This document shows, piece by piece, positions 10,737 to 51,833 of a stretch of 64,000 nucleotides of DNA (within the stretch, counting starts at the first letter, position 1; each line of letters starts with the position of its first letter). Origin of the DNA: Leucobacter aridicollis. GTDB taxonomy: Bacteria > Actinomycetota > Actinomycetes > Actinomycetales > Microbacteriaceae. The stretch lies in the NCBI RefSeq assembly GCF_024399335.1, contig NZ_CP075339.1, forward strand, positions 248,001-312,000. The letters are read 5' to 3'. The position numbers were made by a program, and so were the translations under genes. Under the pieces are notes generated by a model. That model worked only from the letters and a program-made list of their open reading frames with translations, was not told the DNA's origin and made no database searches.

Positions 10737-10794
10737 GAGATCTACGTTAGAAATGCCCGATCCAGTCCGTGTTGCGATTCCTTCTGCAGATTGC
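10737..10794. repeat. Palindromic intergenic element, copy 1
   Basis: A 58-bp element of two 29-base halves. It aligns without gaps to the copies at 42554 and 51776: the left half has ATCT and AATGCCCG, the right half has CTGCAGAT. The inner stem is degenerate here, so it is probably an old copy. Confidence 0.7.
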
Positions 10795-10900
10795 AGGCGT
10801 ATCGACTGGTGGGGTGGGCGGCCCGCACTCGAATCTGTGACTTGTCTAGGCGTGCCGTGTGGGCCAGCGAAGTCGATTGCCTCGGATTGCCGTGGACTGC

Positions 10901-10949
10901 TTGACAATTGCCACTCCGCCTCGTAGGTTCATTAGTGAAGTAATGAACC
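10901..10949 (+). promoter_or_regulatory. Promoter and operator of the GntR-ABC operon
   Basis: TTGACA (10901-10906) and TAGGTT (10924-10929) are separated by 17 bp. A perfect inverted repeat, GGTTCATTA, 6-bp spacer, TAATGAACC (10926-10949), overlaps the -10. This position fits autorepression by the YtrA-type GntR protein encoded next. Confidence 0.8.
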
Positions 10950-11005
10950 AAGGGAGTGGATATGATGCGAGCACGGGTACCGGGCCCGAGGTGACGAGGT
11001 GACAC

Positions 11006-11425
11006 GTGTTTGAGGATTCAAGGCCGATCTTTCAGCAGCTCGCCGAGCGGATTGTCGACGACATTCTGCGCGGCCGCTACGAGGAGGGTGGGCAGGTGCC
11101 CTCAACTAATGAGCTCGCGAGCTATCTCCGCATCAACCCCGCGACGGCAGGCAAGGGCCTCGGCTTGCTTGTCGACAGGGGCATCCTCGTGAAGCGCCGC
11201 GGCATCGGCATGTTCGTTGCCGAGGGCGCAACCGAGCGGATCGCTGCCGAGCGACGCGACCGGTTCGTCCAAGACTTCATCCAGCCAATGCTCGCAGAGG
11301 CGAGCACCATTGGGCTCGACAGGGCGGCGCTTCGCCGCCTCATCGACGAGTCCCACACCCCCGATGAGTCCGCCCCGGGTGCGGAGGCGGGTACTCACCC
11401 CGCCGTCGGCCCCGAAACAGAATGA
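11006..11425 (+). CDS. GntR family (YtrA-type) transcriptional regulator
   Basis: A 139-residue repressor. The winged-helix domain fills residues 5-75 (PIFQQLAERIVDDILRGRY, then VPSTNELASYLRINPATAGK as recognition region). The C-terminal part is short and helical, which marks the YtrA subgroup that controls adjacent ABC transporters rather than the metabolite-binding FadR or HutC groups. GTG 11006 follows GAGGTG at 10996. Its stop overlaps the ATPase start by 4 nt, and the palindrome at 10926 is its likely binding site. The inducer is unknown; members often respond to cell-envelope antibiotics. Confidence 0.9.
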   Translation: MFEDSRPIFQQLAERIVDDILRGRYEEGGQVPSTNELASYLRINPATAGKGLGLLVDRGILVKRRGIGMFVAEGATERIAAERRDRFVQDFIQPMLAEASTIGLDRAALRRLIDESHTPDESAPGAEAGTHPAVGPETE

Positions 11426-12327
11426 GAACGGATATGACCTACGCGATCAAGGCCCAAGGCCTCACGCGCGTCCACGGTGCAACCCGCGCCCTCGACGACG
11501 TCACCCTGAACGTGCACGAGAACACGATCACCGGCTTGCTTGGCCGCAACGGCGCAGGCAAGACGACGTTCATGTCGCTCGCAACGGCGCAGGATCGCCC
11601 GACCTCAGGCACCGTCAGTGTGCTTGGCTCGGAACCCTTCGAGCACGCCAAAGTGCTCGAGCAGCTCTGCTTCATCCGAGACAACCAGCGCTACCCAGAC
11701 GATTACAAGCTTGGGCACGCGCTGCGCGCCGCACGGATCTTTTACCCGAACTGGGATCAGGGCCTCGCCGACGAACTCGTCGAGCTCTTTCGTATCCCGC
11801 CGAAGACAGTCGTGAAGAAGTTCTCGCGAGGGCAAACCTCGGCGCTCGGGATTGTGCTGGGTCTCGCCTCCCGTGCCCCAATCACGTTCTTCGACGAGCC
11901 CTACCTCGGCCTCGACGCGACTGCCCGGAGCTACTTCTACGACGTGCTGCTGCGGGACTATCAGGAGCACCCGCGCACGATCCTGCTCTCGACTCACCTC
12001 ATCGACGAGATGGACAGGTTGCTTGAGCGCGTCGTCATCCTCGACCGTGGCCGCGTCGTGCAGGACGCCGACGTCGACGAGCTCCGCGGCGCTGCACACC
12101 AGGCGGCAGGGTCGGCCGAGGCCGTTGCTGCCTACTCTGAGGGCAGAAAGGTGCTCAGCAGGCACCGGCTCGGCGGTCTCGCCACTGTCGTTGTTGAGGG
12201 CCAGCCTGACATGGCCGCAGCCGCTGGCGACGTCGAACTGAGCGCTGTGTCGCTGCAGGAACTCGTCGCGGCCTACGGCTTTGACGGCGGAGATAGCCCC
12301 GCAAGCGAGAAGGAGGTGCGCGCATGA
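11422..12327 (+). CDS. ABC transporter ATP-binding protein (YtrB-like)
   Basis: A 301-residue nucleotide-binding subunit. Walker A is GRNGAGKT (41-48), the signature is FSRGQ (134-138, instead of the usual LSGGQ), and Walker B is ITFFDEP (154-160). A C-terminal extension of about 80 residues follows the ATPase core. The ATGA overlap with the regulator supports start 11422; ATG 11434 is an alternative. The gene overlaps the permease by 4 nt, so the pair should form one exporter in the membrane. Regulation by the GntR protein is likely; the substrate is not evident. Confidence 0.92.
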   Translation: MRTDMTYAIKAQGLTRVHGATRALDDVTLNVHENTITGLLGRNGAGKTTFMSLATAQDRPTSGTVSVLGSEPFEHAKVLEQLCFIRDNQRYPDDYKLGHALRAARIFYPNWDQGLADELVELFRIPPKTVVKKFSRGQTSALGIVLGLASRAPITFFDEPYLGLDATARSYFYDVLLRDYQEHPRTILLSTHLIDEMDRLLERVVILDRGRVVQDADVDELRGAAHQAAGSAEAVAAYSEGRKVLSRHRLGGLATVVVEGQPDMAAAAGDVELSAVSLQELVAAYGFDGGDSPASEKEVRA

Positions 12328-13034
12328 ATCGCGTGCTGAAGGTGACACGGCTCCACATGAACAAGCCTGGCGCAATGTTCGGTGTCCCCCTGCAGATCGT
12401 GCTCGTGGTGCTCGTCGTGTCGGCGCTCATCTCCCTCATGCTGCAGCGTGGTGGCCTCGACCCGGCCTCTGCCGAGTACGTTGAGGGAGCCCGCTGGAAT
12501 CAGGGCATGATCTGGTCGCTCCCCGGCTTCTTGATCTACTACGGGGTTCAGGCGATCGCGACGACCTACCCGTTCTCGCTCGCGCTCGGGGCGACCCGCC
12601 GTGCTCACGTGCTTGGGACAGCCATCGCGAACGTCGTGCTGTCTCTCTTCATTGCCGCCGTGATGGTGCTCCTGCTTGGACTCGAGCTAGTGACGGGTCA
12701 CTGGTTCATCCACCTGTACGCCCTCGACGTGTACCTACTCGGTTCGGGCAATCCCCTCGTGTTGTTTGTGACGATGTTCCTCATCACGTTCGTGGCGACG
12801 AGCATCGGCGGGTTCTTCGGGGCGGTCTGGGTCCGTTTCGGGTCGAAGGGGCCGACTGTCGCAGCCCTCGGACTCGCGCTCGTGCTCGTCGTGCTGCTGC
12901 TCATCTTCGTGCCCCAGCTTGGGGAGATCATTGCGGCGATCACTCGTCCGCTGTTGGCAGGCGTCGGAGTCGGTATCGCTGTGCTTGCGATCTTCGGCAC
13001 CTGGCTGTCAATGCGCCGCGCTTCGGTACGGTAG
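12324..13034 (+). CDS. ABC transporter permease
   Basis: A 236-residue membrane subunit with about six helices and no recognisable catalytic domain. It starts in the ATGA overlap with the ATPase gene and ends the three-gene operon. Typical segments are VPLQIVLVVLVVSALISLML and VAALGLALVLVVLLLIFVPQ. Sequence gives no substrate clue; by context it is the membrane part of the YtrA-controlled transporter. Confidence 0.85.
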   Translation: MNRVLKVTRLHMNKPGAMFGVPLQIVLVVLVVSALISLMLQRGGLDPASAEYVEGARWNQGMIWSLPGFLIYYGVQAIATTYPFSLALGATRRAHVLGTAIANVVLSLFIAAVMVLLLGLELVTGHWFIHLYALDVYLLGSGNPLVLFVTMFLITFVATSIGGFFGAVWVRFGSKGPTVAALGLALVLVVLLLIFVPQLGEIIAAITRPLLAGVGVGIAVLAIFGTWLSMRRASVR

Positions 13035-13134
13035 CTGCGCCCTGCGGCGTGCCGCGCTGCGGGCCGCCGCTGCAGGCCTCGCGGGCCCGCTGCTTTGACG
13101 CCCCATCCCGGGGCCAAGGTAGCGGCGCTGGCCC

Positions 13135-13167
13135 GCATGGGGCCGGGCGACACGCCCGGCCCCATGC
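13135..13167 (+). terminator. Terminator-like hairpin after the ABC operon
   Basis: A perfect 14-bp GC-rich stem (13135-13148 with 13154-13167) and a 5-nt loop, 12 nt before the hen1 start. No U-tract. It separates the ABC operon from the RNA-repair genes. Confidence 0.65.
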
Positions 13168-13179
13168 AACAATGGGCCA

Positions 13180-14607
13180 GTGTACGTTTCGCTGAGCACC
13201 ACCACTGCCCCTGTCGAGGACCTGACGTTCCTACTGCACAAGCATCCGGCTCGGGCGCATACGCGAAAGCTGTCGGTCGGTGCGGTGAGCGTCGTCTGCA
13301 CTGAACTCACCGATGAGCGCTGCACTGTCGCGCTCGCCCTCGAGGTCGACCCGATCGGACTGCTTCGCGGCCAGGGCGCCGCGATGGAGAGCTTCACCCT
13401 TGGGCAGTACGTGAACGACAGGCCGTATGTGGCATCGTCGTTGCTCACCGGGGCGATTCGCGGGGTGTACGGAACCGCGCTTGCCGGAAACTGTGAGGCC
13501 AGACCAGACAAAGTCGCTGAGCCCCTTGATCTTGAGGTGCACCTTCCGACCGTCGCCTGCGCCGACGGAGCGCAGCTCATCCGCAGGCTATTCGAGCCGC
13601 TCGGCTGGACCGTGTCGGCAAGCGCGCTGCCGCTCGACCCCGAGGTCCCAGAGTGGGGCGATTCAGAGATCTTCGACGTCACCCTTACGGGAAGCGCAGT
13701 GCTGCAGGTCGCCCTGCAGCAACTCACGATCTTGCTCCCCGTGCTCGATGACGCGAAGCACTACTGGGTCGACCAGACTGAGAACGACAAGCTGCTCAGG
13801 CACGGCGGCGAATGGCTCGCAGCTCACCCTGAGCGCGGGCTCATTCTGCGCCGTTTCCTCCGGCACCAACGCGACCTCATCGCTGCCGTCGATGAGGCGA
13901 ACGAAGCTGACGGCGTGGGAGCGCAGGCCGCAGGCGATCCTGACGGAGCCGCCCAGACCGATGCCCGTCGACCGTCGCTCGCGCGTGAGCGCCGCGACGC
14001 CGTACACGCCGAGCTCACACGACTTGGCGCTGCAAGCGTGCTCGACATGGGGTGCGGCCAGGGCGCTCTGCTCGCGCCGCTTGCCCGCGACCCGCGCATC
14101 ACGCGGCTCGTCGGTGCTGACGTCTCGGCCCGCGCGCTCGCTCAGGCGGCCCGCAGGCTCGGGCTCGACGGCGCTTCGGACGGCGCCGCCGACGGCGCGC
14201 CCGAAGCGATCCGCGAGAAGGTCGGGCTCATCCAGTCTTCGCTGACCTATCGTGACGACAGGCTCCGCGGCTTCGACGCGATGGTACTCATGGAGGTCAT
14301 CGAGCACCTTGATCCTGAGCGGGTGCCGGTGCTTGAGCAGACTGTGTTTGCCGAGGCGCGCCCCAGCCACGTGATCGTGACGACCCCGAACATTGAGTAC
14401 AACGCCGCCTACCCCGGGCTCGCGCCCGGGGAGCTTCGCAACCACGACCACCGATTCGAGTGGACCCGCGCTGAGTTCGCGGACTGGGCCGACAGGGTCG
14501 CGCTCGCACACGGTTACACGGTCGTGCTGGCTGGCATCGGTCCGACAGCAGACGGGCTCGGCTCGGCGACACAGATGGCGGCGTTCACTCGGGGAGGAAC
14601 CAAATGA
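13180..14607 (+). CDS. hen1: 3'-terminal RNA ribose 2'-O-methyltransferase Hen1
   Basis: Bacterial Hen1 methylates the 2'-OH of the 3' nucleotide at a broken RNA end before Pnkp seals it, so the repaired site resists a second cut by ribotoxins. The 475-residue protein starts with the family N-domain (FLLHKHPAR near residue 21) and has an SAM-dependent methyltransferase domain from about 260. Visible motifs are LDMGCGQGALL, the Mn-binding EVIEHL (E372, E375, H376), VTTPNIEYN and NHDHRFEW (H422, H424). GTG 13180 gives the standard N-terminus. It overlaps pnkp by 4 nt. Confidence 0.95.
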   Translation: MYVSLSTTTAPVEDLTFLLHKHPARAHTRKLSVGAVSVVCTELTDERCTVALALEVDPIGLLRGQGAAMESFTLGQYVNDRPYVASSLLTGAIRGVYGTALAGNCEARPDKVAEPLDLEVHLPTVACADGAQLIRRLFEPLGWTVSASALPLDPEVPEWGDSEIFDVTLTGSAVLQVALQQLTILLPVLDDAKHYWVDQTENDKLLRHGGEWLAAHPERGLILRRFLRHQRDLIAAVDEANEADGVGAQAAGDPDGAAQTDARRPSLARERRDAVHAELTRLGAASVLDMGCGQGALLAPLARDPRITRLVGADVSARALAQAARRLGLDGASDGAADGAPEAIREKVGLIQSSLTYRDDRLRGFDAMVLMEVIEHLDPERVPVLEQTVFAEARPSHVIVTTPNIEYNAAYPGLAPGELRNHDHRFEWTRAEFADWADRVALAHGYTVVLAGIGPTADGLGSATQMAAFTRGGTK

Positions 14608-17288
14608 CCGAGATCTCGATCCCAGAGGTCGCACTTGTGCTGCTTGTCGGCGCGTCAGGATCGGGCAAAAGCCGGTTCGCCCGTGAGCACTTCGGCCCAT
14701 ACGAGACTGTGTCGAGCGATGAGTGCCGCGGAATCGTCTCGAACGATCCGAACAATCAGGCCGCGACGAAGCCGGCGTTCGAGCTGCTTCACACGATCGC
14801 GTCGAAGCGGCTCGAGGCTGGGCTGCTGACAGTCATCGACGCCACGAACGTGCAACCCGAGTCGCGCGCCTCGCTCATCAAGCTTGCTCGCGACCATGAC
14901 GTGCTTCCCGTCGCGATCGTGTTTGATCTCGAGGAGTCGGTGCTCTTTGAGCACGACCGCGGGCGTGACGACACCCCGCGGGGCGAGAAAGTGATTCGCC
15001 GCCAGCAGGGGCAACTTCGCCGCTCAATGCGCGGCCTGAGGCGTGAGGGGCTGCGCGGCGTACACGTGCTCAACACGACGGACGACGTTGCCGCCGCGAC
15101 GATCGTTCGGCGAAGGCTCCTCACTGACTTCCGCGACGATCACGGCCCGTTTGACGTCATCGGCGACGTGCATGGCTGCCTCCCCGAGCTTGAGGAGATG
15201 CTCGTCACGCTCGGCTATGCGATCGTGCGCGACGACGCAGGCCGTGCGATCGATGCGAGTCACCCCGGCGGGCGTCGAGCGCTGTTTCTCGGTGACCTCG
15301 TCGACCGTGGGCCAGATTCGGTGGGGGTGCTGCGTCTCGCGATGGGCATGCACCGGGCTGGCCACGCACTCGCGGTGCCAGGCAACCACGAAGAGAAGCT
15401 TGTGCAGGCGCTCGACGGTAAGCGGAAGACCATGACGCACGGCCTCGCCGAGACGATGCTCCAACTGGCGGGTGAGACTGACGAGTTTCGGCGTGAGGTG
15501 CGCGACTGGGCGCACGGCCTCGTTTCGCACCTCGTGCTCGACGACGGCAACCTTGTTGTTGCCCACGCTGGGTTGAAGGAGGCGTACCAGGGCCGCAGCT
15601 CTGGGCGGGTACGTGCGTTTGCGCTCTACGGCGACACGACTGGCGAGGTCGACGAGCACGGCCTGCCCGTGCGGCTCGACTGGGCGGCTGACTATCGCGG
15701 GAAGGCCGCCGTGCTGCACGGTCACACCCCCGTCGAAGAGGCCGAGTGGTTCAACAATGTGATGTGTCTCGACACGGGGTGCGTGTTTGGCGGGAAGCTC
15801 TCGGCGCTGCGTTACCCCGAGCGGGAGCTTGTCGAGGTGCAGGCGCGCGAGCGCTACGCGGACCCGATCAGGCCGCTCGCGCCGCCGCGGGGGAGCATGG
15901 CGACACCTGTCGGCGGTCAGGATCGCCAGCAGCTCGCCGGCCCTGCCACCGGGGTGCCGGGCGGCGCCGGGCACGGTTCTGCGCCATCGAGCTCGGGTTC
16001 GTCTGCGGCGGCGAACGCTGGACCGGGCGGTGCTGGGCAGCGCGCCAGTGGCGAACTTCGCGCGGCCGATGTGCTCGGCAAGCGCGTCATCGAGACGAGG
16101 CTCCACGGCCGAGTCGGGATCCGTGCGGAGCACGCAGCCGGCGGATTCGAGACGCTCAGCAGGTTCGCCGTCGCGCCCTCGTGGCTGCCGTACCTGCCGC
16201 CGACGATGGCGCCGTCGCCGACAAGCTCCGAGCCTGGATACCTCGAGCACCCGCGCGAGGCGTTCAAGGTATTTGCTGCAGCGGGCGTCGAGCGCGTCGT
16301 GTGCGAGGAGAAGCACATGGGTTCGCGCGCTGTCGTGCTGCTATGCCGCGACGAAGCGACCGCAGCACGACGCTTCGGAGGGCAGCCCGGAGAGACCGGA
16401 ATGGTCACCACCCGCACGGGCCGGGCGCTGTTCGAGCGTGAGCTTATGGAGGAGTTTCTCGCGGGGCTCCGCGCTGCAGTCAACGCGGCAGGGCTCTGGG
16501 AGGAGCTCGAGACTGACTGGATCCTGTTCGACGGCGAGATGCTGCCGTGGTCGCTGAAAGCGGGCGACCTGCTCATGGGCGTCTTCGCCCCGGCAGGCGC
16601 TGCCGCGCGGGCGGGGCTTGGGGCTGCCGCCGAAGCGTTCGCCGCCGCTCAGGCGCGAGGCGTGGGCGCGACCAAGCTCGAAGCGCGTGCGAGCGAACGC
16701 CTCGCAGATGCCGAAGCCTTCACCCGTGCGTACCGGCGCTACGTCTGGCCGACCTCCGGGCTCGAAGGCGTGAGTTATGCGCCGTTTCAGGTGCTCGCTA
16801 CCGAGGGGAAGGCTCGCTACGGCGACCCGCACCCCTGGCACCTCGACCTCGCTGGCAGGCTCGCGGACGCGGCGCCCGACCTCGTGCGACGCACCCGTGC
16901 GCTCGTGGTGATACCCGCCGACGCCGAGAGCGTTGATGCGGGCATTCGCTGGTGGGAGGAGCTCACCGGTGCTGGCGGTGAGGGAATGGTCGTGAAGCCT
17001 GAGCAGTCAGTCGTGCTCGGCAAGAAGGGGCTCGTGCCCCCGGGGTTGAAGGTGCGCGGCAGGGAGTATCTGCGGATCATCTACGGCCCCGAGTACTTGG
17101 ATCCCGCGAACCTCTCGCGGCTGCGCGAGCGTGATCTTGGGCGCAAGCGCTCCCTCGCCGGGCGCGAGTTCGCACTCGGTGCAGAGGCGATTGACAGGTT
17201 CGTCGCAGGTGAGCCGCTGTGGCGGGTGCACGAGGCTGTCGCGGCGGTGCTCGCGCTTGAGTCTGACCCTGTCGACCCGCGGCTGTAG
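14604..17288 (+). CDS. pnkp: Polynucleotide kinase-phosphatase Pnkp with ligase domain
   Basis: Pnkp heals and seals broken RNA. The 894 residues contain three modules. A 5' kinase has P-loop GASGSGKS (16-23, K22). A calcineurin-type 2',3'-phosphatase starts near 184 (DVIGDVHG, LGDLVDRGPDS, VPGNHEE). A C-terminal adenylyltransferase has the nucleotidyl lysine in EEKHMGSR (about K570). A low-complexity Gly/Ser/Ala stretch (about 430-480) links phosphatase and ligase and makes the protein slightly longer than the roughly 850-870 residues usual. The overlap with hen1 indicates joint expression of the two-component repair system. Confidence 0.96.
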   Translation: MTEISIPEVALVLLVGASGSGKSRFAREHFGPYETVSSDECRGIVSNDPNNQAATKPAFELLHTIASKRLEAGLLTVIDATNVQPESRASLIKLARDHDVLPVAIVFDLEESVLFEHDRGRDDTPRGEKVIRRQQGQLRRSMRGLRREGLRGVHVLNTTDDVAAATIVRRRLLTDFRDDHGPFDVIGDVHGCLPELEEMLVTLGYAIVRDDAGRAIDASHPGGRRALFLGDLVDRGPDSVGVLRLAMGMHRAGHALAVPGNHEEKLVQALDGKRKTMTHGLAETMLQLAGETDEFRREVRDWAHGLVSHLVLDDGNLVVAHAGLKEAYQGRSSGRVRAFALYGDTTGEVDEHGLPVRLDWAADYRGKAAVLHGHTPVEEAEWFNNVMCLDTGCVFGGKLSALRYPERELVEVQARERYADPIRPLAPPRGSMATPVGGQDRQQLAGPATGVPGGAGHGSAPSSSGSSAAANAGPGGAGQRASGELRAADVLGKRVIETRLHGRVGIRAEHAAGGFETLSRFAVAPSWLPYLPPTMAPSPTSSEPGYLEHPREAFKVFAAAGVERVVCEEKHMGSRAVVLLCRDEATAARRFGGQPGETGMVTTRTGRALFERELMEEFLAGLRAAVNAAGLWEELETDWILFDGEMLPWSLKAGDLLMGVFAPAGAAARAGLGAAAEAFAAAQARGVGATKLEARASERLADAEAFTRAYRRYVWPTSGLEGVSYAPFQVLATEGKARYGDPHPWHLDLAGRLADAAPDLVRRTRALVVIPADAESVDAGIRWWEELTGAGGEGMVVKPEQSVVLGKKGLVPPGLKVRGREYLRIIYGPEYLDPANLSRLRERDLGRKRSLAGREFALGAEAIDRFVAGEPLWRVHEAVAAVLALESDPVDPRL

Positions 17289-17289
17289 G

Positions 17290-17340
17290 TCAGCAGCTTG
17301 CGCCACTGCCAGTGCCAACGCCACTGCCAACGCCAACGCT
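17290..17340. repeat. Imperfect 12-bp repeats after pnkp
   Basis: Four to five degenerate units around TGCCAACGCCAC directly follow the pnkp stop and lead into palindromic element copy 2. Confidence 0.5.
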
Positions 17341-17347
17341 GGGCCCG

Positions 17348-17406
17348 CAAATCTGCGGTATGAATGTCGGTCTTGTAGGTGATGCGGCATTTCTTCTGCA
17401 GATCCC
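17348..17406. repeat. Palindromic intergenic element, copy 2
   Basis: A 59-bp copy with one extra base in the right half. The outer stem ATCTGC/GCAGAT is perfect. The inner stem AATGTCG pairs with the GGCATT side if a G-U pair is allowed. The right flank GATCCCAGGG is shared with copy 3. Confidence 0.7.
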
Positions 17407-17455
17407 AGGGTTACCGCTCGCTCGCGGAAGTGGAGCCATAGGCAATATGTACCTG

Positions 17456-17653
17456 CTGAGGCAGGGCTGGGGCGAGGCTGAGGTGTATCTGAGGTAGAGC
17501 TGAGGTAGAGCTGAGGTAGAGCTGGGGTGGGGCTGAGGTGGAGCTGGGGTGGGGCTGGGGTGGGGCTGAGGTGGAGCTGGGGTGGGGCTGAGGTGGGGCT
17601 GGGGCGCACCTGAGGCGGGACTGAGGTAGGACTGAGGCGAGGCTAAGGCAGCT
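17456..17653 (+). repeat. Tandem array of 18 x 11-bp units
   Basis: Eighteen consecutive 11-base units, consensus CTGAGGTGGGG, without indels. The + strand is almost C-free apart from the first base of each unit. Units 9-10 form the canonical G-quadruplex motif (four GGGG runs, loops of 1, 2 and 1) at 17546-17565. The array ends 95 bp before the glutathione peroxidase start. No coding frame is convincing. Confidence 0.85.
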
Positions 17654-17748
17654 GGGCGAGGCCGGACCATCTCCAGCTGCACACGATTCGCGGCAACCTC
17701 CCTGTCAGCCTGACCCGCAGGGGGAGTACCTTGGGAGCAGGAGGCATC

Positions 17749-18246
17749 ATGCGAGATATTGAAGTGACACTTGCAAGCGGCGAGGTGCGGAGGTTTGGTG
17801 AGCTCGCACCCGGTGCGGCGCTCGTCATCAACGTCGCCTCGAAGTGCGGCTTCACGCCACAGTACGCGGGCCTTGAGGAGCTCTACCAAGAGTTCGGCGA
17901 CAAAGGCCTGGCCGTGATCGGAATGCCCTGCAACCAGTTTCTTATGCAGGAGCCCGGCTCGGACCAGGAGATTGCCGAGTTTTGCACGCTCAACTATGGG
18001 GTCACGTTCCCGCTGCTTGCGAAGGGCAAGGTGAACGGACGTGGCACCGAGCCGTTGTTTAAAGAACTGCGGAAGGGTAAAGATGCCGCGGGCGCAGGCG
18101 GTCTGGTCCGCTGGAACTTTGAGAAGTTCGTCGTGAGCCGCGACCCCGAAGGCGGTGGGTCCCCGACGGTCACCCGTTTCCGCTCAGCTGTCGAGCCAAA
18201 CGACCCGGCGATCCGCGCGGCGATTGAGGCCGCGCTCGTGGCCTAG
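17749..18246 (+). CDS. Glutathione peroxidase family protein
   Basis: A thiol peroxidase of 165 residues that reduces H2O2 or organic hydroperoxides; actinobacterial members usually use thioredoxin or mycothiol rather than glutathione. The peroxidatic Cys is in NVASKCGFTPQY (C33), with the Gln in the GMPCNQF region and RWNFEKF supplying Trp and Asn of the catalytic tetrad. ATG 17749 is chosen because GGAGG lies 5 nt upstream; the frame is open to 17731. Its last codons are duplicated downstream as a tandem array. Confidence 0.92.
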   Translation: MRDIEVTLASGEVRRFGELAPGAALVINVASKCGFTPQYAGLEELYQEFGDKGLAVIGMPCNQFLMQEPGSDQEIAEFCTLNYGVTFPLLAKGKVNGRGTEPLFKELRKGKDAAGAGGLVRWNFEKFVVSRDPEGGGSPTVTRFRSAVEPNDPAIRAAIEAALVA

Positions 18247-18315
18247 CCCTACCGCCGCGCTTGCAGCCTAGCCCTACCGCCGCGCTCGTGGCCTCGCCCT
18301 GTCGCCGCGCTCGGA
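18241..18315. repeat. Three tandem 25-bp units at the gpx 3' end
   Basis: Units at 18241-18265, 18266-18290 and 18291-18315 repeat GCCTAGCCCTACCGCCGCGC with a variable end. The first contains the TAG stop of the peroxidase gene, and the unit's CCGCGCTCGTG part equals the final coding bases, so the array seems to derive from the gene's own 3' end. Confidence 0.75.
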
Positions 18316-18346
18316 GCTCGGCACCGGCACTGGTGTGAGAGGTCGC

Positions 18347-21188: not shown

Positions 21189-21229
21189 GTGGCAAGTCCA
21201 AGTATTGATTGCTGGTTTATGGCTGATAT

Positions 21230-21245
21230 AACCCTAGCTTGGGTT
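21230..21245. promoter_or_regulatory. 16-bp palindrome in the divergent FAD/ABC promoter region
   Basis: AACCCTAGCTTGGGTT is self-complementary at 14 of 16 positions and lies 41 bp from the FAD-protein start, between the divergent units. It is a candidate operator for one or both. No regulator gene is adjacent. Confidence 0.4.
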
Positions 21246-42370: not shown

Positions 42371-42410
42371 CCCCGGCTCGCGTCGGCGTGCCGCAATGCT
42401 CTGCGCCACG

Positions 42411-42547
42411 GCCGCAGCTCCACCCGTGGCACCACGCCGCAGCCCTACCTGCACCGCCAGGCCGCAGCTCAGCCTGTAACGCCGTGCCGCAGCCCTACCT
42501 GTTGCTCCACGCCGCAGCTCCACCTGCAGCGCCGTGCCGCAGCGCCA
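42411..42547. repeat. 25-bp tandem array (5 units plus partial)
   Basis: Units start at 42411, 42436, 42461, 42486 and 42511, each opening with GCCGCAG and closing around CCAC or CCGT; a sixth is cut after 12 bp. Alternate units are more alike (units 1, 3 and 5 against 2 and 4), hinting at an older 50-bp unit. It leads into palindromic element copy 3. Confidence 0.85.
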
Positions 42548-42553
42548 CCGTAT

Positions 42554-42611
42554 GCGATCTGCGATTCCTATGCCCACTGCGCTGGGCTGGGGCATACGAA
42601 TCGTCGATCCC
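42554..42611. repeat. Palindromic intergenic element, copy 3
   Basis: A 58-bp copy. GCGATTC-C-TATGCCC pairs with GGGCATA-C-GAATCGT, a 15-position stem interrupted only by one C-C mismatch and ending in a G-T pair. The sequence differs from copies 4 and 5 on both sides of the stem. Confidence 0.8.
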
Positions 42612-42673
42612 AGGGGGTGGCGCTGGGAAAAGGCACGCTCTCAGGGGTCGCAGAACTCTCCGAGCAGCCGACA

Positions 42674-42713
42674 CCAAGCCAGAGCACCCCGCGCCAAGCC
42701 AGAGTACCCCACG
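42674..42713. repeat. Two tandem 20-bp units
   Basis: Copies at 42674-42693 and 42694-42713 agree at 18 of 20 positions, in the last part of the 374-bp gene-free region between resB and the phosphomutase gene. No other content was seen here. Confidence 0.75.
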
Positions 42714-42744
42714 CAGAGCCGTGCTGCTGTGGACCCTGCCTGAG

Positions 42745-44508: not shown

Positions 44509-44700
44509 CGCGCCCCCTCAGTGTGGTGATCGGTAGACAGTTCAAGCTACCACTCGGGTGCCGCAACGGGCAGTATCCGTCGCGGCAAGCTGGGGGAACG
44601 GTGAGTGAAAGCTTTCGGCCACAGAGAACAGGACTGGGCAACTTCGCACTTCGGGGCTATCGTTGATGAGGATTTATTTACGGTGGGGAAATTGGGGACG

Positions 44701-45945
44701 ATGGGCGGACGCGAGTCGCACTGGTCTGAGCAGGCCGGGCACACAGTGCCTCGGCCTGAGATGCCCGGAAGCCTCACCGCCGACGTTGCGATCGTCGGGG
44801 CCGGACACTTCGGCCTGTGGACTGCGTACTATCTCAAGAAGGCGCAACCGAGGCTGCGGATCGTCGTGCTCGAGGAACGCCACGTGGGCCACGGCACCTC
44901 GGGAAGCGCCGTCGGCCGTATGACCGGAGAAGTGCCCGGCGGTAGGGAACCGTATGCGAGACGCCACGGCCGCGATGCGCTGAACCACTATCAGCGCATC
45001 ATGAACGACGCGGTCGCAAACGTGCTCGATGTCGCGGCGACGGAGCGGATCGACGCCGATATCGTCAGCGGCGGAGAGCTTATCGCCGCGTACACCGCCC
45101 TTCAGGATCGACGGCTCCGGGCAGCCACTGCGCTCGCGCAGAAGTACCCGCACACGAACGTCAGGTTGCTTGACGCAGCAGAGGTCAAAGAACGAATGAA
45201 CCTCGCCGGCGTTCGCTCGGCAATTTTGCACCCGCACGCCGCCCGGTTCCAGCCGGCCAAGTTCGCCCACGAACTCGCGCGCGTTGTCGAACGCATGGGA
45301 GTCGCGATCTACGAGCGAACCAGGGTGGAGGAGGCGCTTCCTTTCGTGCTGCAGACGAGCCACGGGGTCGTCGAGGCGGAGGTCGTCGTCGGCGGCAGCG
45401 ATCACCTCTCGGGCGACCGCGGTTGGCGAAGGCTGCAGCGGCCCGTGGCTGCGTCGCTCATCGCGACCGAGCCCCTTACGCTCGACATGTGGGACGACAT
45501 TGGCTGGGGCGGAAACGAGCTGCTCGCGAGTTTTGCATCCCCACGCACCTATGCGCAGCGAACAGCTGACGGCAGGATCGTCGTCGGCGGGCAGCGCACA
45601 CCCTGCCAGACAAGCGCGGCAGCGCACACCTCAGGCAAACTCGGGGGTGGCGCATTCTCTGCGCTGCGGGCCATGCTCCATCGGGTATTCCCAAGCACGC
45701 GAGACGCCGAGATCGCGCACACGTGGGCGGGCAATGCCCGAGTCGTGCACGCTGGGGCGGCCAAGATTGGGTTTGACCGACGGACAGGTGTCGCGTGGGC
45801 AGGGGCCGCGCGTGCCGGCGTCGCTACGGCGAACCTGTCTGCCCGAACAATCACTGACCTCGTGCTCGATCGGACGTCTGAACTCACTGAGCTTCCCACG
45901 GTTCGATCTGGCGGGCCACGCCCTGCCTACGCGAGAACGCGCTGA
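44701..45945 (+). CDS. FAD-dependent oxidoreductase (DAO family)
   Basis: A 414-residue flavoenzyme related to glycine/D-amino-acid oxidases and GlpD. The FAD fold opens with DVAIVGAGHFGLWTAYYL (GxGxxG about residues 33-38), followed by VVLEERHVGHGTSGSAVGRM. The frame is open back to GTG 44605, but ATG 44701 gives the normal family N-terminus (MGGRESHWSEQ); the preceding 96 bp are unusually AT-rich for coding DNA here. Substrate not evident. It converges on the nucleoside phosphorylase gene. Confidence 0.85.
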   Translation: MGGRESHWSEQAGHTVPRPEMPGSLTADVAIVGAGHFGLWTAYYLKKAQPRLRIVVLEERHVGHGTSGSAVGRMTGEVPGGREPYARRHGRDALNHYQRIMNDAVANVLDVAATERIDADIVSGGELIAAYTALQDRRLRAATALAQKYPHTNVRLLDAAEVKERMNLAGVRSAILHPHAARFQPAKFAHELARVVERMGVAIYERTRVEEALPFVLQTSHGVVEAEVVVGGSDHLSGDRGWRRLQRPVAASLIATEPLTLDMWDDIGWGGNELLASFASPRTYAQRTADGRIVVGGQRTPCQTSAAAHTSGKLGGGAFSALRAMLHRVFPSTRDAEIAHTWAGNARVVHAGAAKIGFDRRTGVAWAGAARAGVATANLSARTITDLVLDRTSELTELPTVRSGGPRPAYARTR

Positions 45946-45962
45946 GCGAAACCGGGAGGTGC

Positions 45963-46012
45963 GCGAAGGGGGCTAGTAGCCGGGTCTGTCACCGGCTACT
46001 AGCCCCCTTCGC
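45963..46012. terminator. Bidirectional terminator, 21-bp perfect stem
   Basis: Arms 45963-45983 and 45992-46012, 8-nt loop, between the convergent DAO and phosphorylase genes. Confidence 0.85.
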
Positions 46013-46027
46013 TGCGGGTGGTCGCTA

Positions 46028-46834
46028 TTAGAAGCGTGCGACGACCTCGGTGAGGAGGGCAGCGAGGCGTGGCTCGGCCTCCTTGCCAGCGGCGATAACC
46101 TCTTCGTGGCTGAGCGGGGTCTCCTGGATACCTGCCGCGAGGTTCGTGATGAGTGAGAACCCGAGGATCTCCATGCCGGCCTCGCGTGCGGCAATCGCCT
46201 CAAGGGCGGTCGACATACCGACGATATCGCCGCCGATGATGCCCGCATAGCGGACTTCTGCGGGGGTCTCGTAGTGCGGTCCACGGAACTGCACGTACAC
46301 GCCGTCGTCGAGGGTAGCGTCGACCTCGCGGGCGAGGTCGCGCAGCCGCGACGAGTAGAGGTCGGTGAGGTCAACGAAGGTCGCACCCTCGAGCGGCGAC
46401 GCTGCGGTGAGGTTGATGTGGTCCGAGATGAGCACGGGCTGGCCGGGGGAGTACGCCGGGTTCACTCCGCCGGCGCCGTTCGTGAGCACCATGATCTTCG
46501 CGCCCGTTGCTGCTGCGGTACGCACGCCGTGCACGACCGACCGCACCCCGTGATCCTCGTAGAAGTGGGTGCGTGCGCCGATGACGAGGGCGTGCTTGCC
46601 GTTCGCGAGGCGGATCGAGCGCAGCGTTCCCGAGTGCCCCGGAACAGCCGACGCGCGGAAGCCGGGAACCTTGTCTGCCTCAATGACGGCGACTGTCTCG
46701 CCGATAACGTCGGCAGCCTTGCCCCAGCCGCTGCCGAGCGTGAGGGCGATGTCGTGCTGCGCAACACCAGTGAGGTCGGCGATGACGGCGGCGGCCTCCG
46801 CAGCGAGGGCTTTCGGGTCTGTTGAAGTACTCAT
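46028..46834 (-). CDS. Purine-nucleoside phosphorylase
   Basis: A trimeric (class II) PNP of 268 residues that splits purine nucleosides with phosphate for salvage. GSGWG (phosphate loop), VPGHSG, NGAGGVNP, FRGPHYETPAEV (purine and ribose site) and GMSTALE are all present, and the length is typical. ATG 46834 is preceded by TAGTCT with 7-nt spacing, so the mRNA is probably leaderless, and that hexamer lies inside the terminator of the upstream decarboxylase gene. Confidence 0.96.
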   Translation of the reverse strand: MSTSTDPKALAAEAAAVIADLTGVAQHDIALTLGSGWGKAADVIGETVAVIEADKVPGFRASAVPGHSGTLRSIRLANGKHALVIGARTHFYEDHGVRSVVHGVRTAAATGAKIMVLTNGAGGVNPAYSPGQPVLISDHINLTAASPLEGATFVDLTDLYSSRLRDLAREVDATLDDGVYVQFRGPHYETPAEVRYAGIIGGDIVGMSTALEAIAAREAGMEILGFSLITNLAAGIQETPLSHEEVIAAGKEAEPRLAALLTEVVARF

Positions 46835-46841
46835 AGAGACA

Positions 46842-46887
46842 AGACTACGCCGGGTGCGGCTCCCTTGGAACGCACCCGGCGTAGTCT
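46842..46887 (-). terminator. Terminator of the decarboxylase gene overlapping the PNP promoter
   Basis: A perfect 17-bp stem (46842-46858 with 46871-46887), 12-nt loop, begins 12 nt after the decarboxylase stop. The outer end of the distal arm (46842-46847) is TAGTCT on the minus strand, the -10 of the PNP gene. Confidence 0.8.
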
Positions 46888-46899
46888 CTGCGCGAGTTA

Positions 46900-49605
46900 C
46901 TAATTCTTAATGATGCGGTAGCCACGGAGCGGGTCGTAGCCGTGAATCTCGCGGGTATCGAGCACCTTCATGAACGCGAGCACCTCGGGCGAAACAACCT
47001 GACCCGGCACGAGCACGGGGAAGCCAGGAGGGTAGGGAGTTACGAAGCCAGCCGAGATCGGCTTCTCGCCAGCATCAACGCGCGCACGGAGATCATCGCC
47101 GAGCACATACTCGATGTTCCCGCGGCGCTGACCGCGGAAGAACGCGGCCCGCAGATCTCCATCGGGAAGAATCTCATCGGTCGCGTACGGCGGGGCGAAC
47201 GAGCTGAAGTCGGGCAGCGGCGGCATCGGGACCTCGGCGGGGAGCGACTGCTCGGGGTCACGTTGCGCCTGCTCCTCCTCGAACCGCTCAGCGAGTTTCA
47301 CGAGCACCTCGATGAGGTAGGCGACCGAGCTTCGCGAGGTGCCGATGTTCGTCATGAAGAGCACAGTGTTGCGGCTCGTCTTGTTGACCTGGATGCCGTA
47401 GCGATCCATGAGATGTTCGTGCTTGAACGTGTCGCCGTCGACGCCTGTCCGCGAGATTTCAATCGTGATGCGAGACGGGTCGACAACGAACTCGTCTGTC
47501 GCCCAGGCCTCCCACATGCTCGACAGGCCATCGCGCAGCGGCATCGCCCTGCCAGTCTCCCGGTACTGCTCGGGAATGAGATCGTGGGCGGTGAGCACGC
47601 GGAACGTGCGCCGCAGCAGCGTGTGCCTGGCGATCGCCTGGGACAGGCTCGTCGCAAGGTCAAGCTGCCGCTGCACGAGCTCGAAACCCTCGAGCTCGAC
47701 CTGGCGGCGGCCGATGTCCAGCGAAGACAGGATCTGGTAGTTCGGCGATGTCGACGTGTGCGTCATGTATGCCTCGTGGAATGGATCCTGCGCGTCGCGC
47801 ACCCAATCCTGATCCCACACGTGAATCATCGACCCCTGACGCAGCGCCGTGAGCGTCTTGTGCGTCGACTGGGTCGCGTAGACGCGCACGCGCGCATCAG
47901 GCGACGGGATCAGTCGCTCGCTGAGCCAGACCTCGTCGGCTGCTGGCGTCCCGTCCTCAGCGAACAGGATCGACTGCTGCTCGCGATACGCGCGCTCGTG
48001 CGCGGCCGACTTGAGCTGCTGCTCGAGCAGCTTGGCCGACGCCATCGCCGTGCGGCGACGGGTGACGGGGTGGAACGCGCCGAACGCGAACCATGCCTCA
48101 TCCCACAGGAAGACAAGGTCAGGTTTGATCGCAAGGCACTCGCTCATGACGCGGAAGGGATCGTAAACGATACCGTCGAACGTCGTGTTCGTGAGCGTCA
48201 CCATGCGCACCTCGTCGAGGCGTCCAGCGGCGCGGTAGTCGAGCAGCAGTTGCTTGATGCGGTCGATCGGCACCGCACCGTAAAACGCAAAGTCGTTGAG
48301 CGGGTACGCGTCGAGGTACGCCGGGCGGCCGCCAGTCAGCATCATTGAGTGGTGGTGCGACTTGTGGCAGTTGCGGTCGACGAGCACGACGTCGTTCGGG
48401 GCGACGAGGGCCTGGTGCACAACCTTGTTGGCAGTGGAGGTGCCGTTTGTGACAAAGAATGTGTGCTTCGCCCCGTATGCGCGTGCGGCGAGCTCCTGCG
48501 CCTTCTTCAGCGTGCGTACGGGGGCGAGCAGCGAATCGAGGCCACCTGACGTCGCGCTCGTCTCTGCGAGCAGCAGGTTCAGGCCGTAGAAGTCGGCGAG
48601 GTCCCGGATCCACTTTGACGACATCACCGACCCGCCGCGGGCGACAGGGAGCGCGTGGAAGACGCCGACAGGGCGGCGCGCGTGATCCTGGATCGCGGAG
48701 AAGAACGGGGTGTCGTAGAGGTGCGAGACGCGACGCAGAAGCGAGAGGTGCAGCTCAAGGTGATCCTCACGGCGGAACACGCGGCGGAAGCGCTTCGTCA
48801 TCGCACCCGCGAGCTCCTCGATGTGTGCGCCAGCCATGAGATAGAGGTCGAGCTCTGGCCTGAGTGCCGCGAGGGTGTCGGCGAGGCCGAGCACGCGCTG
48901 CACCGAGGCGAGCTGGTTGCGGGCGCTCGTCTGAGGCGACGTCGTTTCGGTGTGTGCGAGCTCGATCGTCTCGCGCAGGTCTCGACTGAGTGTCTGCTTC
49001 GTGCGCTCGCTGAAGCCCGGCCGGACGACACACGCGAGGATGTTCGGGTTTGTGAGCACGGCGGCGACGGCATCGTCCGCTGAGGGGACGATGACGTATT
49101 CGTAAACGAAAGCGTCGGCCGCGCTTCGCATCCTGAGGCTTTCGGCTCGCATGCTGTCGCGGTCGGCCGGAGTCGTCTCATCGACGACAAGGACCTCGAA
49201 GCGTGGCCGAGGGTCGCCGTCGATGGAGAACTCCTCATCGGCCTCGGGGTCAGAGTCGCCTGCCGCTTCCTCGGAAGTGCCAACAGCGCGAAGCCTGTTC
49301 ACGACCTTGCCGATGCGGTCGAGCGCGGCCTGATACTCGCCCGCGGCGAGCATGTCGCCGATTGCGGTGACATAGCGCTGGCCGAACCCAGCCCAGTACA
49401 TCTCGACGGTTTCGAGGGCGCGCAGCGAACGGTGAATCTCGCTATCTGCAGCCAGTGCCTCGGTCGCCTCCGAGCGATCCCCAAGGGCGAGACGTTTCAC
49501 GGCGAACCGCAGGTACTCCCATGCGTCGCTGCGCATCCGCCACGTGCTCGAGGGCATGCCCGGATCGCGTTCAAGTACCGGTTCTGCCTTGGACTCTGAC
49601 ACCAA
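46900..49605 (-). CDS. Orn/Lys/Arg decarboxylase (PLP fold I)
   Basis: A large amino-acid decarboxylase of 901 residues. An N-terminal region of about 330 residues (wing-like plus extra helices) precedes the PLP domain: FFVTNGTSTANKVVHQAL, DRNCHKSHHHSMML, FLWDEAWFAFG and the Schiff-base lysine in ATQSTHKTLTALRQGS (about K584). The C-terminal domain ends in REIHGYDPLRGYRIIKN. The family makes cadaverine, putrescine or agmatine and consumes protons; which substrate is used cannot be told. It is monocistronic, with its own terminator. Confidence 0.92.
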   Translation of the reverse strand: MVSESKAEPVLERDPGMPSSTWRMRSDAWEYLRFAVKRLALGDRSEATEALAADSEIHRSLRALETVEMYWAGFGQRYVTAIGDMLAAGEYQAALDRIGKVVNRLRAVGTSEEAAGDSDPEADEEFSIDGDPRPRFEVLVVDETTPADRDSMRAESLRMRSAADAFVYEYVIVPSADDAVAAVLTNPNILACVVRPGFSERTKQTLSRDLRETIELAHTETTSPQTSARNQLASVQRVLGLADTLAALRPELDLYLMAGAHIEELAGAMTKRFRRVFRREDHLELHLSLLRRVSHLYDTPFFSAIQDHARRPVGVFHALPVARGGSVMSSKWIRDLADFYGLNLLLAETSATSGGLDSLLAPVRTLKKAQELAARAYGAKHTFFVTNGTSTANKVVHQALVAPNDVVLVDRNCHKSHHHSMMLTGGRPAYLDAYPLNDFAFYGAVPIDRIKQLLLDYRAAGRLDEVRMVTLTNTTFDGIVYDPFRVMSECLAIKPDLVFLWDEAWFAFGAFHPVTRRRTAMASAKLLEQQLKSAAHERAYREQQSILFAEDGTPAADEVWLSERLIPSPDARVRVYATQSTHKTLTALRQGSMIHVWDQDWVRDAQDPFHEAYMTHTSTSPNYQILSSLDIGRRQVELEGFELVQRQLDLATSLSQAIARHTLLRRTFRVLTAHDLIPEQYRETGRAMPLRDGLSSMWEAWATDEFVVDPSRITIEISRTGVDGDTFKHEHLMDRYGIQVNKTSRNTVLFMTNIGTSRSSVAYLIEVLVKLAERFEEEQAQRDPEQSLPAEVPMPPLPDFSSFAPPYATDEILPDGDLRAAFFRGQRRGNIEYVLGDDLRARVDAGEKPISAGFVTPYPPGFPVLVPGQVVSPEVLAFMKVLDTREIHGYDPLRGYRIIKN

Positions 49606-49708
49606 TTGCCTCCAACGTCGCTGTCGCGTATCAGGCCTGCGCGGGCGAAAGAGGTGCGCAGGGCCCTAAGTCCCCGATCATACGGTGCCGAGCATGCCTC
49701 AGCACGCC

Positions 49709-49714
49709 TAGACT
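49709..49714 (+). promoter_or_regulatory. -10 element of lpdA-like gene (leaderless)
   Basis: TAGACT, then 6 nt, then the ATG at 49721. Confidence 0.55.
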
Positions 49715-49720
49715 TGAGGC

Positions 49721-51151
49721 ATGGCGAAAGAACGTAAGCACAGGATCGTTGTTCTGGGCGGCGGCCCCGGCGGATACGAAGCCGCGCTCGCTGGCGCGCA
49801 GCTCGGTGCTGAAGTCACACTCGTGGAACGCGCAGGGGTCGGCGGTTCGGCCGTGCTCACTGATGTTGTGCCGTCAAAGAGTCTCATCGCGACCGCAGGA
49901 GCCGTGCAGTCGGTGCGCGACGCCGGCAAGCTCGGCGTGCAGACCTTCCTCCCCGGTGGAGATGGCAAGCCGGTTCGACCCGAAATCGCGGTGAACCTTG
50001 CCGCCGTCAACAAGCGACTCCTCGCGATGGCGGGCGCACAGTCGACAGATATGCGCCTGAGCCTTGAGGAGAGCGGCGTGCGCCTCGTTCAGGGCTCCGG
50101 CAGGCTCGACGGCCCGAACGCGGTGCTTGTCTCAACCTCACAGGAGGGCGGCACCGACTTCGACCGCATCGAGGCCGACACAATCGTAGTCTCTGTCGGC
50201 GCGAGCCCCCGCGAACTCGACTCTGCGAAGCCAGATGGCGAACGCATCCTTACCTGGCAGCAGGTCTACAACCTGCAGGACGTCCCAGAGCACCTCATCG
50301 TCGTCGGGTCGGGTGTCACAGGCGCCGAGTTCGCAAACGCGTACGCGACGCTCGGAGCCGAGGTGACGCTCGTATCGAGCCGTGAGCAGGTGCTCCCCGG
50401 AGAGGACCCCGACGCTGCTGCGGTCATCGAACACGAGTTCAAGCGCATCGGCATGAACGTTATGTCGAAGTCGCGCGCCGACGCTGTCGAGCGGACCGAA
50501 GACGGCGTCAGGGTGACGCTCTCAGATGGCAGCGTCCTTGAAGGATCACACTGCCTGATGGCGGTCGGCTCGATCCCCAACACCGAGGGCCTCGGGCTTG
50601 AGGAGGCCGGCGTCGAGCTGAGCGAGAGCGGCCATATCAAGGTCAACAAGGTCGCGCGCACCTCGATCCCATCGGTCTACGCCGCGGGCGACTGCACCGA
50701 CTTCTTCCCGCTCGCCTCTGTCGCCTCAATGCAGGGCCGCACAGCGATCATGCATGCTCTCGGCGACTTCGTGCGCCCGATCGACCTGCGAAACGTCGCC
50801 TCGAACGTCTTCACGTACCCAGAGATCGCGACTGTTGGCTGGAATGTTCGCTCGCTTGCTGACGCGACCAACATGGCCACGGCGATCACGCATACGATCC
50901 CGTTGAACGCGAACCCGCGCGCGAAGATGATCGGGTTCACAGACGGGTTCGTGAAGCTGTTCGCTTGGAAGGCTTCGGGAACCGTGATCGGCGGCGTGAT
51001 CGTCGCTCATCGCGCGAGCGAGCTCATCTTCCCGCTCGCGCTCGCCGTCGAGCACCGCCTGACCGTCGACCAGGTCGCGTCTGCATTCACCGTCTACCCA
51101 TCGCTCACCGGCGCGATCACTGACGCCGCCCGCGCGATGCACGTGCACTAA
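49721..51151 (+). CDS. NAD(P)H-quinone dehydrogenase (LpdA-like flavoprotein)
   Basis: A 476-residue member of the flavoprotein disulfide reductase family. FAD motif VVLGGGPGGYEAALAGAQLG and the NAD motif IVVGSGVTGAEFANAY are complete, as is VYAAGDCTD. At the redox-disulfide site it reads GVGGSAVLTDVVPSKSL without either Cys, so it cannot act as a lipoamide dehydrogenase. This matches mycobacterial LpdA (Rv3303c), which passes electrons to quinones. It is followed by a cupredoxin lipoprotein gene sharing one base. Confidence 0.92.
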   Translation: MAKERKHRIVVLGGGPGGYEAALAGAQLGAEVTLVERAGVGGSAVLTDVVPSKSLIATAGAVQSVRDAGKLGVQTFLPGGDGKPVRPEIAVNLAAVNKRLLAMAGAQSTDMRLSLEESGVRLVQGSGRLDGPNAVLVSTSQEGGTDFDRIEADTIVVSVGASPRELDSAKPDGERILTWQQVYNLQDVPEHLIVVGSGVTGAEFANAYATLGAEVTLVSSREQVLPGEDPDAAAVIEHEFKRIGMNVMSKSRADAVERTEDGVRVTLSDGSVLEGSHCLMAVGSIPNTEGLGLEEAGVELSESGHIKVNKVARTSIPSVYAAGDCTDFFPLASVASMQGRTAIMHALGDFVRPIDLRNVASNVFTYPEIATVGWNVRSLADATNMATAITHTIPLNANPRAKMIGFTDGFVKLFAWKASGTVIGGVIVAHRASELIFPLALAVEHRLTVDQVASAFTVYPSLTGAITDAARAMHVH

Positions 51152-51555
51152 TGGTTAGCACAACACAGACTGTCGCCTCGCGGCGCGCGAGTGCACATTT
51201 CGTGGCGCGCGTTGCCATCATGCTCGGAATACTCGTACTCGCTGTGATGCTCGCCGCATGTGCCCCCGCCAAGCCGCCACTCGTGCCGTCTGATGACGAC
51301 GCGAAGGTGACAGTGACGGTTCGCGTTGTCGACAACAAGTTTGAGCCCAAGGAGTTCACAATCTCGCAGGGTGAGGCTGTGCGCTGGGTGTTCGAGGGGC
51401 CGTCGAACGAGCACGATGTCGTTGCGAAGGACGGCAGCTTTGTGAGCGAGCTCATGCGTGAGGGCAGCTACACCCACGTGTTCAACGACATTGGTGGCTT
51501 TGACTACCTGTGCTCGATCCATCCCGAGATGACTGGACTGATCACCGTTAAGTAG
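51151..51555 (+). CDS. Cupredoxin-domain lipoprotein
   Basis: A 134-residue blue-copper-like protein. An N-terminal hydrophobic segment ends in lipobox MLAAC (C37). The copper ligands are seen as NEHDV (His) and YLCSIHPEM (Cys, His, Met), the type-1 set of plastocyanin-like domains. It should carry electrons on the outer face of the membrane. Its ATG shares the last base of the LpdA-like gene stop (TAATG), so the two are co-translated. Confidence 0.93.
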   Translation: MVSTTQTVASRRASAHFVARVAIMLGILVLAVMLAACAPAKPPLVPSDDDAKVTVTVRVVDNKFEPKEFTISQGEAVRWVFEGPSNEHDVVAKDGSFVSELMREGSYTHVFNDIGGFDYLCSIHPEMTGLITVK

Positions 51556-51648
51556 TGGCTCTCGGCTGCCGCGTCTGTACGACGGCATGTGGCTGATGCC
51601 GTGGTGGCGGGTTGGGCGGCTGTGACACACGTCGTCCGCCGTACGTAT

Positions 51649-51706
51649 GGGATCTGCAGTAGCAATGCCCGTTCCGGCCGGAACGGGCATTAGTGTTGCC
51701 GATTAC
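51649..51706. repeat. Palindromic intergenic element, copy 4
   Basis: A 58-bp copy whose inner 28 bp (51664-51691) form a perfect palindrome with 14-base arms; 8 of the 15 outer pairs also match. It starts 94 bp after the cupredoxin stop. Confidence 0.85.
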
Positions 51707-51775
51707 ATTCCCAGCGCCGGCGGCAGAGCGCCGCGGCCCAGTGTCGGCCGTACGCCTGTTGTCAGCCGTACCCCT

Positions 51776-51833
51776 GTGATCCCCAGTAGTAATGCCAGTT
51801 CCGGCCGGAACGGGCATTACTGCTGCAGATCAC
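51776..51833. repeat. Palindromic intergenic element, copy 5
   Basis: The best-preserved copy: two 29-base arms pair with about 4 mismatches. GTGATC/GATCAC close the outer end. It lies 127 bp after copy 4, and both have the flank GCCGTAC before them, so one 127-bp unit was probably duplicated. Confidence 0.9.

Follow-up and report, generated by a model that had tools for sequence, protein, structure and literature searches.

Five palindromic elements in a 64,000-nucleotide stretch of a Leucobacter chromosome (the window; G000:C1:248001-312000) belong to a family of dozens of four-box elements that keep their places between genes and their key bases from one species to the next. Judged from sequence comparison, the element is an extragenic palindrome under selection, stable in its sites and confined to one genus among the genomes sampled, and would most likely serve as a multi-subunit binding site for a putative protein. 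We put a probability of about 0.6 on the reading that these elements form a fixed set of chromosomal binding sites for such a protein, restricted to some members of Leucobacter. Throughout, G000 denotes the genome of the window (3.604 Mb, one contig), labels G003 to G456 denote comparison genomes, with G005 as the nearest relative, and L-numbers denote single fetched loci.

Results

Copies in the window

The sequence-only reading had described a 58-bp palindrome at positions 10737, 17348, 42554, 51649 and 51776, and all five copies are present there. A covariance model, R1, built from a 16-copy alignment, recovered all of them, each on the two strands, with no other match in the window at E ≤ 5, a result that is circular on its own because the five copies had been in the training set. 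They do represent a palindromic family, but the proposed length proved too short: conserved positions extend to ~86 bp overall. Searching the window against Rfam gave 0 matches, both at gathering scores and at E ≤ 1.

Copy 1 (10723..10808, like all copies given without strand; arms 10736-10757 and 10774-10795, 16-bp centre 10758-10773) lies between divergent genes, whose predicted starts are 170 and 205 bp away from the model hit, and has an ortholog in G005. Copy 2 (17334..17420; arms 17347-17368 and 17386-17407, 17-bp centre) also has an ortholog in G005 and is flanked by tandem genes, a Pnkp-type RNA repair gene and a glutathione peroxidase gene. Copy 3 (42540..42625; arms 42553-42574 and 42591-42612, 16-bp centre) sits between the convergent genes for ResB and phosphoglucomutase and has orthologs in G005 and G019; in G013, an element is also found 3′ of the phosphoglucomutase gene, where a weakly predicted small gene separates it from ResB. 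Copy 4 (51635..51720; arms 51648-51669 and 51686-51707, 16-bp centre) and copy 5 (51762..51847; arms 51775-51796 and 51813-51834, 16-bp centre) share one convergent gap, 127 bp apart and 78% alike. In G005 and in G019 this gap holds a single element. In G010, a more distant relative, our own gene predictions place the two genes ~20 bp apart, and no element was found between them.

Three further features of the region may be recorded here. Positions 13285-17288 encode an RNA-repair pair, in which a Hen1-type methyltransferase (PF12623) precedes a Pnkp-type kinase/phosphatase/ligase (PF16542). An 878-aa protein of the Orn/Lys/Arg decarboxylase type (46900-49536) has matches at E ≤ 1e-100 in all 24 Leucobacter genomes searched, and no such match was found in either of the two other genera tested. 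Short minisatellites, e.g. GGCTGGTGGCT and GGCTGTGGCTGT, directly adjoin several elements (window 51841-51892; L002 and L007, right side).

A genome-wide family

Whether the palindrome exceeds shuffled sequence across the genome, the question on which the sequence-only reading let its claim depend, was tested, and a large excess was found. In G000, R1 gave 146 matches over both strands at E ≤ 1, merging to at least 76 distinct elements in 56 clusters; 60 of these elements were outside the training set, and 68 scored better than 1e-3, with 8 weaker. Searching the fetched G000 loci added two further weak elements, resulting in the 78 used for placement, and a direct search recovered one extra copy with an 18-bp centre and a low score, absent from the model listing; element counts should be read as minima, and negative results as a lack of strong copies. 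The pattern GATCTGCnnnAnnnATGCCC, with up to three mismatches, matched the window 14 times against 5.9 expected (0/100 shuffles reached 14) and the whole of G000 258+289 times against 99+102 for the reversed pattern. A two-arm palindromic pattern occurred at 72 places in G000 compared to 5 for a control pattern, an imperfect control in that genomes without the family exceed it too (e.g. G003, 37 vs 10); the places listed in G003 do not resemble the element.

The 56 clusters fall 4-8 into each of ten chromosome bins, showing no regional bias by this binning, and they are no more regularly spaced than random placement would give (P 0.12). Neighbouring copies are mostly 104-187 bp apart, one pair at 286. 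Tandem duplications of element-bearing segments were seen at L099, L118, L093, L091, L100, L116, L137 and L124, the copies of these eight neighbour pairs lying 104-163 bp from each other and showing 91-100% likeness over 45 bp; several tandemly duplicated gaps of G000 hold a single copy in G005.

Anatomy

Each element comprises two inverted half-sites with ~16 bp of unrelated sequence between them, each half-site consisting of two ~18-bp box repeats, and conserved positions extend 17 bp outward from the GATC core on each side. The fixed bases of the half-site are TGnGATCnGC and ATGCC. In a logo of 144 halves from 72 copies, restricted to copies of at least 20 bits, these correspond to TG (-4, -3), GATC (-1 to 2), GC (4, 5) and ATGCC (13-17), with weaker positions at C-17, C-13 and W-10; the centre carries little signal. 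Copies below 20 bits were dropped from the logo and from the similarity, pairing, folding, loop, U-tract and target-duplication analyses, and near-identical tandem copies from those of pairing, folding and target duplication. The make-up of the half-site is plain in relatives, where a 12-bp box occurs twice at an interval of 18 bp: the half-site reads GCgGaaGATaTG-GGATCT-GCaGaAGATATG in G007 and GCCGTAgATATG-caATCn-GCCgtCgATATG in G013. The box itself is GCnGwnGATATG in relatives and about GCAGTAnnnATG in G000, a form we describe as decayed.

The GATC cores are 51 bp apart in 59 of 72 G000 copies and 52 bp apart in the other 13, and the spacing is 51 or 52 bp in 71/71 copies of G005 and in 18/18 listed copies of G007; since R1 preferentially detects copies with a fixed spacing and with conserved bases, both signals owe part of their strength to ascertainment. 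Between different copies, the likeness of the centres is 0.30 in G000, 0.31 in G005, 0.35 in G007 and 0.45 in five G013 copies.

Placement between genes

The intergenic location noted for the window copies extends to the genome, as all 78 G000 copies examined lie between genes by our own codon-score gene predictions: 44 in convergent, 30 in tandem and 4 in divergent gaps. The corresponding counts are 4, 8 and 5 in G007 (17 copies among the matches listed) and 3, 8 and 0 in G456 (11 best-scoring copies), and in G433 one of the eight best-scoring copies overlaps a predicted gene. Gap totals of 36 convergent, 52 tandem and 34 divergent derive from loci picked for holding elements and are hence biased. 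The sole unbiased sample is the window, where 2/5 convergent, 1/6 tandem and 1/9 divergent gaps of at least 100 bp carry an element.

Conservation of position and of bases

In the longest block of this region that aligns between G000 and G005, the DNA is 87% identical. Comparing orthologous gaps, 51 of 55 G000 loci (51 fetched stretches plus 4 window stretches) have an element in the same gap in G005; 31 of these shared loci were assigned by a strict two-flank rule and 20 were placed by hand, with alignments reaching into or up to the gap. The remaining four (L095, L110, L126 and L135) matched none of the G005 stretches that were fetched. Several G005 loci are without a G000 partner, and at the only one checked (L166), G000 holds an element too. 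In G019, flanking genes are common with G000 element loci at 13 of 14 loci compared among the matches listed, and elements occupy the gaps of copies 3 and 4/5. Positional conservation at greater distance is suggestive only: 17 listed G007 loci include one in the same gap as in G000 (L251) and one with a single shared flank (L242), and eight listed G013 loci include one in the same gap (L273) and one after the same gene (L270).

How is the sequence constrained at these stable sites? Across 52 ortholog pairs, identity is 0.95-0.98 at ATC and 0.77-0.89 over ATGCC, compared to 0.54-0.68 for positions 6-12; the loops, taken from the 43 pairs of equal loop length, are at 0.54. Outer positions are at 0.45-0.59, except for 0.65-0.75 at -17, -13, -10 and -5, and identity just outside the element (-19, -18) is 0.40-0.42, flank identities being ungapped and thus lowered by indels. 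Conserved positions are identical at a rate of 0.872 versus 0.595 for variable ones, and are the higher of the two in 51/52 elements. The mean profile score is 59.7 bits in G000, the source of the profile, and 58.3 bits in G005, as compared to -35, -23, -13 and -2 in a neutral simulation at assumed identities of 0.54, 0.60, 0.65 and 0.70; one ortholog pair whose anchors are off by one (L103/L161) was retained and sets the low minimum profile score. Since a model located the elements of both genomes, their identity at consensus bases is inflated, and the synteny count is affected less. To judge from these alignments, the base pattern of conservation is that of purifying selection on particular bases.

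Arm pairing

The arms had also been said to covary. Pairing above chance is indeed present, but it is weak in G000, where the excess is confined to a few near-perfect copies: at variable stem positions, 5.45 of 10 are paired versus 4.88 with swapped arms (64 copies, z 3.5), and 50/52 copies pair at 10-19 of 22 stem positions. At seven variable positions, real versus swapped arms gave 3.18 vs 2.69 in G000, 3.12 vs 2.65 in G005, 5.40 vs 4.71 in G007, and 5.75 vs 3.43 in G456 and 5.67 vs 4.50 in G433, the last two sets being best-scoring copies (19 places) and their pairing thus overstated; one misanchored G456 copy (L293) was left out of the test and three more copies from the same stretches were added. 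The five nonredundant G013 copies did not exceed the swapped-arm null (4.0 vs 4.28). Pairing is hence above chance in five of the six species tested, and stronger in some relatives than in G000.

Double changes between G000 and G005 number 12 against 3.9 expected at paired conserved positions (8 compensatory), 31 against 20.2 at variable positions (13 compensatory) and 47 against 40.4 at outer positions. In this comparison, compensatory double changes exceed expectation modestly, and template switching is a known source of such changes (PMC8794818). Homogenisation of the outer and inner box within an arm, suggested on inspection by eye, was also considered and rejected: z was 2.3 in G456 and 1.8 in G007, the effect is absent from G000, G005 and G433, and a pooled z of 4.5 mixes species. 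Overall, the proposal of selection on a repeated, intergenic, palindromic family is supported.

Distribution across genomes

At E ≤ 1e-5, 21 of 54 Leucobacter genomes, G000 included, carry the family; 15 have at least nine matches and 6 have 1-3, the other 33 having none. Match counts among carriers range from 1 to 88 over both strands, and each species has its own consensus. With strict filters, 3 of 398 genomes from 85 genera of the taxonomic family had a match, all of them Leucobacter; the 84 other genera sampled had none under these filters, strong copies being sought. One weak match (E 0.0015), inside a predicted gene, came from G030, which belongs to a different genus of the order. When the six high-copy genomes are mapped onto a tree of 25 genomes built from one gene, 4 changes are required versus 5.5 for shuffled labels (33/500 shuffles as low), and the low count is mostly due to the trio of G000, G005 and G019. 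Presence is thus patchy beyond this trio.

The single strong copy found in G016 is near-perfect and lies in a convergent gap (L053 1501-1569); no plasmid or phage matched it, and no viral contig had the pattern GATCTGCMGWAGATATGCC. A pattern scan of GTDB contigs returned 20 places, two in Leucobacter and 18 in unrelated bacteria or archaea, and running 10 of those 18 through the model gave two weak partial matches (L078, L085) and eight without a match. Weak model matches in G017 and G021 (L058, L059, L067) resemble other strong hairpins beside genes rather than the family. In open-licence papers, we did not find such elements described in Leucobacter; an earlier description is possible.

Discussion

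What might these elements do? We favour a role as protein-binding sites. Each site is an inverted pair of half-sites, and each half-site two ~18-bp repeats of the 12-bp box joined by GGATCT, so placed that the GATC cores lie 51/52 bp apart around an unrelated centre, or about five helical turns. Given this spacing, the putative protein would most likely bind the element as duplex DNA and read its constrained bases, with several subunits probably bound at once. The extra complementarity of some arms probably stems from quasi-palindrome template switching, a known mutation process, rather than from a required RNA fold. We further infer that the role is chromosomal, in structure or in insulation between transcription units, rather than in promoter control. 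That core spacing is held at 51-52 bp although loops of different copies match at only 0.30-0.35 argues for binding sites. There are also points against: presence in 21/54 genomes is unusually patchy for an important chromosomal site, the arms of G007, G456 and G433 pair better than mere binding needs, the 82% likeness of G007 arms would also fit a younger spread in that genome, and the clusters are not more evenly spaced than random (P 0.12).

The family could instead descend from an old REP- or MITE-like nonautonomous element, its transposase since lost or of an unrecognised type, whose copies were later fixed or domesticated. We regard this origin as unlikely, though it is the most serious competitor to protein-binding sites. 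The elements are intergenic and palindromic, with neighbouring copies at short distances; they are patchy across species, with match counts of 1-88 and a species-specific consensus, and the arms are near-perfect in some species. The arms of different G007 copies show a mean likeness of 82%, and one G007 loop pair matches at 13 of 16 positions, above the 8-12 of shuffles. Yet the Y1 (RAYT-type) transposase PF01797 was found neither in G000 nor in 24 relatives (0/25 genomes; 5/14 control genomes were positive), and the REP/MITE-like label given by the sequence-only reading is unsupported in several other respects. In same-orientation comparisons over 45 bp, the best dispersed pair of G000 reaches about 73% likeness, values above 90% being confined to the eight tandem-neighbour pairs, and dispersed copies of G000 and G005 share no loop beyond the shuffle range (best, 12 matches of 16-17). 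Direct repeats at the ends disagree between the two genomes, with 2-bp repeats at 13 vs 4.5 in G000 and 3 vs 5.2 in G005, and 3-bp repeats at 6 vs 0.9 in G005 and 1 vs 0.8 in G000 (27 settings each). No consistent target duplication thus emerges, although old duplications would have decayed. Finally, positions are stable between G000 and G005 (51/55 loci).

Action at the RNA level, e.g. as bidirectional terminators or as 3′-end stabilisers of messages, would account for the 44/78 convergent and 4/78 divergent placements in G000, and folding is strong, at a mean of -34.8 kcal/mol over 40 G000 copies versus -31.3 with swapped arms; real arms fold better than swapped ones in G000, G005 and G007, though not in G013. 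However, the elements lack a U tract (3.3 T in the 14 nt past the stem; seven or more T at 3 of 144 G000 stem ends), and no intrinsic-terminator match was found at copies 3-5, a weak test in that the scan covers loops of 3-8 nt and the element has a 16-nt loop. Five of the 17 listed G007 copies lie in divergent gaps, and in 50/52 G000 copies just 10-19 of the 22 stem positions are paired, whereas single bases are conserved. A hairpin function in RNA therefore strikes us as improbable. We give hardly any credence to the family being functionless, an ancient set in slow neutral decay with mutation-driven repair of its palindromes. Template switching is able to keep stems paired (PMC8794818), and the loops are random, but decay cannot hold GATC and ATGCC at ~0.8-0.98 with adjacent bases at ~0.55.

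Extragenic palindromes are usually classed as mobile or parasitic. A family that retains its sites and key bases amid the turnover of loops and flanks, with no RAYT-type transposase, would offer a clean case of selection, and its presence or absence across 54 genomes makes the putative partner protein findable by co-occurrence.

How does the element compare with known systems? REPs and BIMEs, which have RAYT transposases (PMC2817692), are likewise intergenic palindromes with many copies per genome, short neighbour distances and a species-specific consensus, and have been reported as protein-binding sites; their abundance is given there as usually over 100 copies per genome, here at least 76 at E ≤ 1. 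The Leucobacter element, in contrast, is a ~86-bp four-box array, with no Y1 transposase in 25/25 genomes. It further differs from REPs and BIMEs in its apparent base-specific purifying selection, its stable positions and the lack of dispersed near-identical copies in G000. Like an intrinsic terminator, it can form a hairpin and lies mostly near gene 3′ ends in G000, but it has no U tract, conserves its primary sequence and occurs in divergent gaps too. Bacterial MITEs are short and noncoding, with inverted-repeat arms, features shared by the Leucobacter element, whose centres, in contrast, are unrelated, and which shows neither consistent target duplication nor dispersed near-identical G000 copies.

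Comparable to the protein-binding sites favoured here are chromosome-wide protein sites such as those of Noc, SlmA and MatP. Leucobacter might possess a chromosome-organising system of its own, wherein dozens of four-box sites lying between transcription units are the assembly points of a putative DNA-binding protein, and species acquire or lose the protein jointly with its sites, a scenario that we consider doubtful. The sites of Noc, SlmA and MatP are also tens of palindromes scattered on the chromosome, whereas the Leucobacter site is much longer, is composed of four boxes, is intergenic in 78/78 cases and has no regional bias that we could see.
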